A DNA stretch of 64,000 nt from Chlorobiaceae bacterium. Lineage in GTDB: Bacteria; Bacteroidota; Chlorobiia; Chlorobiales; Chlorobiaceae. Below the pieces are notes generated by a model that made no database searches, was not told the origin of the DNA, and saw only the letters and a list, made by a program, of their open reading frames with translations. This document shows positions 21,805-26,212 of this stretch, piece after piece. Position 1 is the first letter of the stretch, and each line of letters begins with the position of its first letter. Location: NCBI GenBank assembly GCA_013335405.1, contig JAAXVR010000010.1:1-64000 (forward strand). The letters run 5' to 3'. Both the position numbers and the translations under genes were made by a program.

Positions 21805-22443
21805 TTATAAATCCGTTGATGACATGTCATCGAACTGCTTTGATTCCATATTTCTTCGTAGTTCAGAAAGAAGTTCACCCTCAAACATCCAATATCCAGG
21901 ACCGCTCGCAGCAGGAGTGCTATAACCAAGACTATGCAAAGCTTTCAATGCTGCCGCTGAAAGACTTAAGACTTCTCCTTCGAAATTGACTTTTCCGTTG
22001 TCAACTACGATAGCTGTAATGTTCTCGTCGCGGGAGAGAGTAAGGATGTCTCCAGGCTTAATACCAAGAGCTTCTATATTGAGTCTAGGTCGGCGTGCTT
22101 TAACCTTTTCAAGTGCCTCTTGTTCTTCAACGTCTATTTGAGCAGCTCCTGGGGTAATTTCTTTGAACTCGCCAATGCTGATAGCAAGAACCACCTTTTC
22201 AGGATCAATCTTGAAGAACTCTCTCTTTGGATTGATTCTTGCTTCCGAAAAGAGCTGATGAAGCGTTTTTTCTAATTTTACACAATCAATCACTTCCGCA
22301 GCAAAATAACACTCAAATGGGAGCGGTACACCAGAGTGTGCGCTGAGCTGCGTAATCCGAGATTCGACGCTTTCATTTGTAAGTCCGACTTTGACGATCC
22401 CTGGCATGGATTCATTAGTGAGGACGTAAATGATATTTGGCAT
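21805..22443 (-). CDS. GIY-YIG nuclease-like protein with C-terminal DUF4357
   Basis: A 212-residue protein. The N-terminal domain (NIIYVLTNESMPGIVKVGLT) is a GIY-YIG/T5orf172-type nuclease fold with Tyr in the first strand and a Lys-Val-Gly-x-Thr second strand, followed by HQLFSEARINPKREFFKI with the conserved Arg and Glu. The C-terminal part, VLSLSAAALKALHSLGYS then GPGYWMFEGELLSEL, is a DUF4357 domain, common in proteins beside restriction-modification genes. It is the last gene of a three-gene minus-strand operon with a methyltransferase and a nuclease-helicase. Its role may be cleavage or DNA recognition, not proven. Confidence 0.8.
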   Translation of the reverse strand: MPNIIYVLTNESMPGIVKVGLTNESVESRITQLSAHSGVPLPFECYFAAEVIDCVKLEKTLHQLFSEARINPKREFFKIDPEKVVLAISIGEFKEITPGAAQIDVEEQEALEKVKARRPRLNIEALGIKPGDILTLSRDENITAIVVDNGKVNFEGEVLSLSAAALKALHSLGYSTPAASGPGYWMFEGELLSELRRNMESKQFDDMSSTDL

Positions 22444-22516
22444 CAGTAACCTTCTTTGGAGATATTTTTAAACAATAAACGGATTGTAATAGGGTCAACT
22501 TAAATATTTTTATGTC

Positions 22517-23545: not shown

Positions 23546-23548
23546 TTC

Positions 23549-26212
23549 TTATACCTCTATTGTTTCGTATTCTCTTAAATAATAATCAGATGTAAGAATT
23601 GTGTGTCCAAACAATTCTCGAATAATGCATAGGTCGTCATCGGCAACCATACTTGAAGAATGCGGCCATGCTGCAATAAAGGATTGCATGCGAGCTTTTG
23701 TTCGCTCTGTTTCCTCTCGATGATGAGGTTTAAATAGCGAAGGCATTAGCATTAGTTTTTTTATGGTTATTCTTGTTCTCTCCGTGTCTATAACATCGCA
23801 AGCCGCAAGAATATTTAATAAAAACGGGCAACGCCGCCGTGCTGCCTCCAAGGTTGCCTCATCAATACCTTCTTGATCGCAATACTGCCGGACAAATGGA
23901 GACTGGAAAAACTGCTCATACACTGTATTCCTCTCAACCGCAGGAGATCGAATTATGTGATATAAAAACGCCAGCATCTGCTGAACCGCATGCATTTGCA
24001 AAAAAATGTGATAAGCGGCCTTTCGGGCAACACTGCTGGTGCTTATGTGAGATCTGATAGCTTGATTATAATAGTCGTCACTTTCATGCATCTTTGTTGA
24101 AGGGATGCCGTCAGCATCAAAAGGAAAATCTAAATCAAGCTGATCCAGCAGGGGTCTGAATGCGTCATATAGCGCTTGTCCTTTTGGTGTGAGTTCAAGG
24201 GGCGTTATTTCATGCGTGGAATAGTTGCGATCATCAGGCAGAATTCCTAATTCCATTGCCGCTTGTAACTTATACTTGATTTGTCGTTGATATATACCCA
24301 GACGATCTTCGTCTAACCCACCTCTTAAACGTATATATTTATCATCGAAATGAGTTTCGGATCTGAGGCCACTACCGAAGACTTTTAGAATAGAAAGGAT
24401 ATGCCCTAAATGAGTTCCTTGAGGATAGTGATAGCTTGCTTCTGTGTATTCGCCGATTTCTCTTAAAAAAGCCACCCATGTTCCAAATACTCTGGTATAA
24501 TTCGCGACCTTGTATTCGCTTTGTTCAAGATCGGTCCTGCTCGGTTTTCTTCCTAAAGTCTCTGCTAGAGCAAAGTAAGCATCTTTCAATTCATCCCTAG
24601 AGATTCCCATCTCCTGAACGTCTTGGCGATCTAATATCTCTTCTACTCTCTCGTTAAAGATTACCTCACAACCTGTCGAATATTCATATTCGATTTTATG
24701 ACCATTTCCTTTTGTAACGCTGCCGAAACTCTGTCCTTTTGACAGATATTTTCTTATTTGATTTGCTCTTTTGTAGTTACCTATAAAATCCAGGACTTTT
24801 ACTCGATCTTTACCTGAACACAATCTAAGGCCACGGCCTAACTGCTGAATAAAAATGGTTTTTGATTCTGTTGGGCGTAAAAATAACAAAATGCGTACGT
24901 TAGGGAAGTCCATTCCCTCATTGAAAAGATCAACTGTAAATGCAACTTGAATTTTATTTTCTCTGAAAGCTTTCAAATCCTCATTCCGCGTCGGGCTGCC
25001 AGAATGAATCGCTGCTGCGGTTATGCCATGCTGCATAAAGTATTCAGCTGTACGCTCAGCATGACGAATAGATACGCAAAAGCCAATTGCCTTATCACTT
25101 TCACCTTTATCGAGATATTCTTTTAGTATTGCCTCATTTCGCTCAGGAATAATCAACAATCTTTCAAGATCAGCAACATTATACTTTTTACCTTCATACC
25201 GTATACGTGAGTAATCAACATTATCTGTCAATCCATAATAAGTATATGGAACGAGAAAACCCCTATCTATAGCATCAGCCAACGGAAGCTCATAAACTTT
25301 ATTATAATCGAAAAGTTCAAAAATATCTTTACGATCGAGTCTGTCAGGTGTTGCAGTCATACCCAGCATAAATCTGGGTGTAAAATGTGTCAATATTTCC
25401 CGATAAGATGGACTTTGCCCATGATGAACCTCATCAACAACGATATAATCAAACCAATCTCGAGAGAACCGACTAAGCTCTGTAGGTTGTCTCATAGTAT
25501 CTTTCGAAGCAAAAAGAACTTCACAGTCAAGCTCATTTAGTCTTTCCTCGCCGGTCAAAATTCCGATCCGCGCATTTGGCTTTACAAGCCTGAAGGCATT
25601 GATACTTTGAGCTAAAATATCTAGCCTATGCACCATAAATAATATTCGTCGGCCTGTATTTAATGAATCAATCGCAGACAAAACAGTTTTGCCTGTTCCG
25701 GTAGGCAAAACAATAATACCTTTTCTCCATCCTCGTGTATTTCTGAAAAAATCGAGCGCATGCAAGGCTTCTTCCTGAAGTCTCGTTGGCGTAATAGTGT
25801 ACTCCGACAACAAGTCTGGGGCATGAACTCTAAAAGTTTCGCGAAGAGTATCTATTATCAAATGTCTCCATTGTGTGCTTTGAAGTTGGTTATAAGAAAA
25901 ACGCAAAAGTATATAACCTCTACTTAGAATTTCATTTTGTCGAAACAAGTTATCATCAAATAATTCATTGGGGATTATTCCTTCTGCATGATATGTTTCT
26001 CCGTTTACCTCTAAAGCAATGCATGATCTTGAGCCATGGTAGGCAAAATCAATGCGACGTGATTTTCCAGTCCGATCCAAAAAAAGATACTGTGGAACAA
26101 TCTTTTCAATTTGCTGTCCTACAATCGGATATAGAAATTCATCAACGAAAAGTCGTTCGCTTTCTTGTGTTATTTTACTTCCGTATTTCTCGTAATATTC
26201 TTCAATATTCAT
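23549..26212 (-). CDS. Restriction-like fusion: nuclease domain, SF2 helicase and HNR domain
   Basis: A protein of 887 residues from the ATG at 26212 (MNIEEYYEKYG); an upstream TTG at 26236 is less likely. Residues ~35-130 look like a Vsr/DUF559-type PD-(D/E)XK nuclease: RRIDFAY, then IALEVNGETYHAE and later NEILSRGYILLRFS. Then follows an SF2 helicase: Walker A LPTGTGKT, DEVHH box, GMTATPDRLD, and motif VI IQQLGRGLR. After it comes a homing-endonuclease-associated repeat (LAETLGRKPSRTDLEQ, then TRVFGTWVAFLREIG), a DNA-recognition module. The C-terminal ~250 residues are unassigned (a winged helix at LELTPKGQALYDA). Likely the restriction enzyme of the operon, with ATP-driven translocation. 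Confidence 0.85.
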   Translation of the reverse strand: MNIEEYYEKYGSKITQESERLFVDEFLYPIVGQQIEKIVPQYLFLDRTGKSRRIDFAYHGSRSCIALEVNGETYHAEGIIPNELFDDNLFRQNEILSRGYILLRFSYNQLQSTQWRHLIIDTLRETFRVHAPDLLSEYTITPTRLQEEALHALDFFRNTRGWRKGIIVLPTGTGKTVLSAIDSLNTGRRILFMVHRLDILAQSINAFRLVKPNARIGILTGEERLNELDCEVLFASKDTMRQPTELSRFSRDWFDYIVVDEVHHGQSPSYREILTHFTPRFMLGMTATPDRLDRKDIFELFDYNKVYELPLADAIDRGFLVPYTYYGLTDNVDYSRIRYEGKKYNVADLERLLIIPERNEAILKEYLDKGESDKAIGFCVSIRHAERTAEYFMQHGITAAAIHSGSPTRNEDLKAFRENKIQVAFTVDLFNEGMDFPNVRILLFLRPTESKTIFIQQLGRGLRLCSGKDRVKVLDFIGNYKRANQIRKYLSKGQSFGSVTKGNGHKIEYEYSTGCEVIFNERVEEILDRQDVQEMGISRDELKDAYFALAETLGRKPSRTDLEQSEYKVANYTRVFGTWVAFLREIGEYTEASYHYPQGTHLGHILSILKVFGSGLRSETHFDDKYIRLRGGLDEDRLGIYQRQIKYKLQAAMELGILPDDRNYSTHEITPLELTPKGQALYDAFRPLLDQLDLDFPFDADGIPSTKMHESDDYYNQAIRSHISTSSVARKAAYHIFLQMHAVQQMLAFLYHIIRSPAVERNTVYEQFFQSPFVRQYCDQEGIDEATLEAARRRCPFLLNILAACDVIDTERTRITIKKLMLMPSLFKPHHREETERTKARMQSFIAAWPHSSSMVADDDLCIIRELFGHTILTSDYYLREYETIEV

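Follow-up and report, generated by a model that had tools for sequence, protein, structure and literature searches.

The stretch of DNA considered here, referred to below as the window, comprises 64,000 nucleotides of a Chlorobiaceae genome (GCA_013335405.1, contig JAAXVR010000010.1, positions 1 to 64,000) and carries in a prophage a putative two-gene restriction-modification (R-M) system, that is composed of a nuclease-helicase, termed here HEL, and a DNA methyltransferase of the M.RsrI family. As claimed in an initial annotation made from the DNA letters, three intact open reading frames (ORFs) are found on the minus strand within 21805-26212, and both their restriction-like nature and their location in a prophage are upheld. 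HEL, the predicted restriction component (887 amino acids), is encoded by an intact ORF at 23549..26212 with an ATG at 26212 and a TTG-started reading from 26236; it is followed after 3 bp by the gene for the adenine-N6 methyltransferase (342 amino acids; 22517..23545), predicted to modify GAATTC. The third gene (21805..22443), which encodes a GIY-YIG (T5orf172/MUG113) protein of 212 amino acids with a RAMA-like tail, starts 73 bp beyond the methyltransferase gene and is preceded by its own ribosome-binding-like sequence. A promoter scan gave scores no better than shuffles, and for that reason transcription units were not taken from it. The HEL/methyltransferase pair occupies a cargo-like position among head-packaging genes, both in the window and in the phage contig L071.

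The HEL protein consists, in this order, of a nuclease, a superfamily 2 (SF2) motor, a connector that holds a repeat, and about 300 C-terminal residues. Residues 1-140 (25793..26212, minus strand, as are all HEL segments) may fairly be described, on the grounds of sequence and a structural model, as a DUF559/Vsr-like nuclease domain of the PD-(D/E)XK / MTES_1575 type. Independent HEL orthologues all match PF18741 (REase_MTES_1575) over the catalytic stretch at sub-threshold E-values of 3.5e-5 to 0.007, and six sequences agree at all of the residues D55, E68, N70, H75 and D87. The AlphaFold (AF2) model of the domain (predicted local distance difference test, pLDDT, 84) retrieves phage DUF559, Vsr and DUF2726-type proteins with Foldseek; its matches to solved structures are weak and include I-Bth0305I (3r3p) and McrC nuclease domains. 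The SF2 core (residues 141-482; 24767..25792) contains ResIII (PF04851, 1.6e-31) and Helicase_C (PF00271, 1.1e-13), both above the Pfam cut-offs, with intact PTGTGKT, DEVH, TAT and QQLGRGLR motifs, and all catalytic and helicase motifs that were checked are invariant in the six HEL sequences. The nearest counterpart of this motor is the one in SauUSI (7clg, E 1.9e-67, 441 residues aligned, 203-643), the best PADLOC match of HEL is mREase_IV (4.4e-70), and EcoAI HsdR is matched with 128 bits against a cut-off of 550 bits. After the motor comes a homing-endonuclease-associated repeat (HNH_repeat, residues 537-587; 24452..24604), which exceeds the cut-off of PF18780 at 5.8e-10 and, in the L071 copy, at 2.6e-10. 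The nuclease, the helicase and the repeat had each been named in the initial annotation, and these matches bear them out.

It was also suggested there that the repeat might read the target, for which no support was found, since the repeat terminates a 645-residue helicase, L002, that lacks any further C-terminal region (a match below the cut-off), and is present in unrelated proteins as well. The stronger candidate for a target reader is the C-terminal region of about 300 residues (590-887; 23552..24445), which is unique to the HEL family: it gave no Pfam family above cut-off, nothing significant with Foldseek against the PDB and no match in 394 other genomes of the phylum. Within it a winged-helix-like stretch at about 645-717 shows a profile match to a helix-turn-helix regulator (E 0.004). 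In L176 (G108) a 592-residue ORF was observed, in which a methyltransferase domain, 27% identical to that of the window, is followed by a stretch resembling the HEL repeat region.

As had been proposed, the second gene encodes a beta-class methyltransferase (N6/N4; PF01555, 1.7e-57), in which the DPPY and FAGSG motifs are intact. Its nearest solved relative is M.RsrI (1eg2, E 6.9e-135), to which it is homologous over the full length with 67% identity, and PADLOC scores it at 467 bits as MTase_II (PDLC03327) versus 49 bits as Type III. RsrI cuts GAATTC (PMC11473606, PMC5896346), and M.RsrI is the N6-adenine methyltransferase that belongs to it. The putative recognition region, placed at residues 146-227 by the motif order usual in the class, has 42 of its 82 positions invariant over 18 sequences that come from both HEL and EcoRI contexts. 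Because this region is the most conserved part of the protein, 83% identical to M.RsrI versus 51-67% in other core regions, GAATTC is the best prediction of specificity, and, judged by this homology, the methyltransferase probably targets GAATTC with GAm6ATTC as the probable product. No insertion or tail common to only those methyltransferases that have HEL as a partner was found. Five positions split according to partner; at none of them does each group keep one residue throughout, and the tail is not conserved.

The main clue, overlooked in the initial annotation, is that beside this M.RsrI homologue the helicase stands in the position of an EcoRI-type endonuclease. M.RsrI-family loci were counted at 45% identity or above (n=19), below which the next IMG/VR methyltransferase matches fall sharply to about 30%. 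The partner is an EcoRI-family endonuclease at 11 of these loci, HEL at six, a HEL remnant at one and neither at one. The EcoRI-family partners were established by Pfam in six tested cases (EcoRI, E 1e-88 to 1e-104) and by tblastn in the rest. Seven IMG/VR contigs have an EcoRI-family endonuclease of 279-289 amino acids that precedes the M.RsrI-like gene (Pfam for five, tblastn for L067 and L070), and the endonuclease follows the methyltransferase in the phage contigs L104 and L105, in the Acinetobacter plasmid L060 and in L185, a genome from the same class as L074. Complete EcoRI-family R-M gene pairs are in this way carried by the IMG/VR phages L065-L070, L072, L104 and L105, several of them beside portal or terminase-like genes. 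Among the ORFs neighbouring the methyltransferase of the window there is no EcoRI-family gene; its neighbour is HEL.

Besides the HEL of the window, five full-length orthologues with 53-64% identity were found, all starting at the same ATG region, in the phage contigs L071/L076, L075, L077 and L078 and in the alphaproteobacterial metagenome-assembled genome L074. Those in IMG/VR were found by means of a two-sequence alignment; the scan with a single HEL and patterns of variable stretches gave none. At all six known loci HEL lies directly upstream of the M.RsrI-family gene, with gaps of -4 to +13 bp, so that of the co-occurrence looked for by the initial annotation the helicase/methyltransferase part holds at 6/6 loci and the GIY-YIG part at 1/6. 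Within the material searched, complete copies of HEL are rare, and five of the six reside in phage contigs or prophages. Searches of 395 genomes of the same phylum with the methyltransferase and with a profile of the C-terminal region yielded no second HEL locus, the methyltransferases there reaching at most 41% identity. In INPHARED phages and PLSDB plasmids there were helicase-core matches only, none of which reached 80% coverage, and 385 class-mates of L074 contain one further M.RsrI-family locus only, which has an EcoRI-family partner.

In the maximum-likelihood tree of 18 methyltransferases HEL and EcoRI partners interleave, and on the well-supported branches the partner must have changed at least twice; L078, with HEL, groups with L060, with an EcoRI-type enzyme. 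The identities of HEL and of the methyltransferase correlate (r 0.97 over 15 pairs, a value that partly reflects shared ancestry) and the two trees agree among HEL loci; both proteins have diverged in step, and therefore the pair travels as a unit. At L101, a very large phage contig (IMGVR_UViG_3300025161_000004, 246768 bp), an intact methyltransferase gene stands behind the last 109 residues of HEL, which are 68% identical to L078. Such a remnant is the usual mark of an endonuclease that was lost while its methyltransferase was kept.

It is proposed, with a probability of roughly 0.7, that HEL and the methyltransferase constitute a prophage-borne, two-gene, ATP-dependent R-M system directed against GAATTC, in which HEL replaces EcoRI-type enzymes. 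What was observed in favor of this proposal are the domains, the intact motifs, the obligate pairing, the interchange of partners with EcoRI-family endonucleases and the co-divergence. In the predicted mechanism the methyltransferase would mark GAATTC (probably as GAm6ATTC) on the DNA of the lysogen and so protect resident DNA, and the C-terminal region of HEL would bind unmodified GAATTC sites. The SauUSI-like SF2 motor would then hydrolyse ATP and move along DNA or remodel it, and the N-terminal DUF559/Vsr-like nuclease might cut when two enzymes meet or stall. A more specific claim, toward which the evidence leans by a lesser degree, is that HEL represents a class of restriction enzymes not described before, in which one ATP-driven chain with its own C-terminal reader acts on the six-base palindrome GAATTC. 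Beside members of one methyltransferase family, such an enzyme would do the work of EcoRI-fold enzymes and could be exchanged for them. No paper describing the HEL-methyltransferase arrangement was found, and REBASE may already contain members of the family as predicted entries.

The textbook enzymes EcoRI and RsrI work without ATP. If the proposal is true, the loci document an exchange between two restriction enzymes of equal specificity, one dependent on ATP and the other not. In that case an enzyme with another mechanism can take over the restriction half of a system, with the modification half and probably the target retained. It would also add a defence system that phages carry as cargo against other phages. 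How a short palindrome is read by an enzyme that depends on ATP, next to a symmetric methyltransferase, becomes a testable question with a predicted specificity in hand.

Several points weigh against the proposed system. The nuclease domain of HEL stays below the Pfam cut-off in every case, and no PDB structure matches it significantly; no known DNA-reading domain was found in the C-terminal region, where the winged-helix hint is weak. GAATTC is about as frequent in the loci as expected, which says nothing on avoidance of the site. The interleaving of partners comes from 18 sequences with several unresolved forks, shared ancestry contributes to the correlation given above, and the HEL family is small, with six full copies. 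The cleavage and its site, the use of ATP, the GAATTC specificity, the translocation and the assignment of the part of HEL that reads the site are predictions from sequence.

The alternative that survives best, albeit an unlikely one, is that HEL does not read DNA by itself and binds the methyltransferase, which would give specificity to a Type III-like (Mod/Res) complex. The tight gene pair and the ResIII-type SF2 core are compatible with such a complex, the HNH_repeat and the C-terminal region could be parts that contact a protein, and it is general knowledge, in keeping with the title of PMC4005696, that the methyltransferase supplies specificity in Type III enzymes. However, the same methyltransferase family serves EcoRI-type enzymes that act alone, and neither the search for an insertion or tail specific to HEL partners nor the five partner-split positions, none of which is fixed, point to a contact with HEL. 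The wide gap between its Type II and Type III scores argues in the same direction, and the roughly 300 extra C-terminal residues of HEL could read DNA.

Improbable is also the possibility that HEL is a Type IV, modification-dependent nuclease, next to a methyltransferase that serves another purpose, e.g., as a shield against EcoRI-type enzymes of the host. That SauUSI is the nearest solved relative of the motor and mREase_IV the best PADLOC match would agree with it, yet the nuclease and recognition domains of SauUSI were not found in HEL. The adjacency at every known locus, the replacement of an EcoRI-type endonuclease at the same place and the HEL remnant beside a kept methyltransferase argue against it as well.

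The initial annotation regarded the three genes as one operon, and it may be asked if they act together, the GIY-YIG protein being either another nuclease or a part that confers specificity. They lie on the same strand, 73 bp apart, and the RAMA-like tail is of a kind associated with restriction systems. The GIY-YIG assignment itself holds (PF13455, 1.9e-15; PF10544, 3.2e-15; both above cut-off), as opposed to the DUF4357 part of that assignment, for which there was no match up to E 10. The PADLOC PDC-S57 match covers nearly the full length (6e-72), and the RAMA-like tail is weak, being recognized below cut-off through a 91%-identical homologue (E 1.3e-5). However, all five other HEL loci lack the gene, those of its relatives that come with flanking sequence have neither HEL nor the methyltransferase beside them, and within the locus it stands apart from the closely spaced pair. 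Moreover, the L073/L179 contig, 95% identical to the window phage over 6 kb, carries that homologous gene, and there the homology stops 4 bp before its start codon, with no methyltransferase behind. Joint action of the three genes is very improbable. Because it is absent from the other HEL loci and occurs alone in L073, the GIY-YIG gene is judged a separate passenger, one of several, outside the two-gene system.

The stretch beside the GIY-YIG gene looks like a site that accepts cargo. A duplicate of the 3' end of a head gene (20205-20292) lies at 21706-21793, is 78% identical and forms an insertion scar; the head gene end and this duplicate bracket a 349-residue, membrane-protein-like ORF (20425-21474, plus strand), which has no family match and no counterpart in the related contig L073. 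Since L073 stops 371 bp short of the GIY-YIG gene, a site empty of the HEL/methyltransferase pair could not be demonstrated. That HEL serves the phage as a helicase in replication or repair and is only incidentally linked to the methyltransferase is hardly credible: helicases are common in phages and the SF2 core matches phrog_16, but the obligate pairing, the exchange with EcoRI-type enzymes, the N-terminal nuclease and the cargo-like placement of the pair in the window and in L071 all speak against it.

Elsewhere in the window other features were observed on the plus strand. Upstream of the terminase, 13836-16285 is a possible phage DNA-modification cassette, with a DUF488-like protein, a ParB-N-like protein and an ORF (14245-15564) that fuses DAM-like-phage1 and GNAT-phage-like parts (8.8e-42 and 2.1e-25). 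A stand-alone N-terminal domain of ArdC (anti-restriction; PF08401, 2.1e-6) is encoded at 27593-27952, and a 3184-residue ORF at 46967-56521 is probably a giant surface protein of the host outside the prophage. A tRNA-Val gene (42340-42415) lies near the right side of the prophage.

Among known systems SauUSI, a Type IV enzyme, resembles HEL in that one chain begins with a nuclease, goes on with a homologous SF2 motor and has a long C-terminal part; in SauUSI the SF2 ATPase is preceded by the nuclease and followed by a helical coupler and then the target-recognition domain, and the enzyme translocates on DNA with ATP and was proposed to cut when enzymes converge (PMC7913695). Its nuclease, however, is of the phospholipase-D (PLD) type, whereas that of HEL is DUF559/Vsr-like, and the C-terminal regions differ; enzymes of the SauUSI type cut only modified DNA and have no cognate methyltransferase, which for HEL is obligate. 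CglI and NgoAVII share with the HEL system a stand-alone Type II methyltransferase and a nuclease dependent on an SF2 ATPase, but there nuclease and motor reside on different proteins (R2N2), and the parts are a PLD nuclease, a B3 recognition domain, DEAD/Z1 and a C5-cytosine methyltransferase (PMC4267653). HEL is one fused chain with no PLD or Z1 match, beside an N6-adenine methyltransferase. Type III (EcoP15I) and Type I (EcoAI/HsdR) enzymes also unite an SF2 motor and a nuclease in one chain, to which the profile matches of HEL are weak. They are unlike it in that no HsdS/HsdM and no Mod-type methyltransferase are adjacent, the HEL nuclease is N-terminal and Vsr-like, and the methyltransferase scores as Type II. 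The initial annotation was right to see a layout other than Type I or Type III. PDC-S57, a single-gene phage-defence candidate of PADLOC, corresponds to the GIY-YIG protein, a gene apart from the HEL system. There is likeness, too, to the RsrI/EcoRI-family Type II systems (GAATTC), with which the HEL system shares the methyltransferase family, the two-gene adjacency and a similar placement in phages; the ATP-independent EcoRI-fold enzyme of about 280 residues that stands there is replaced here by an unrelated, 887-residue nuclease-SF2 motor protein.

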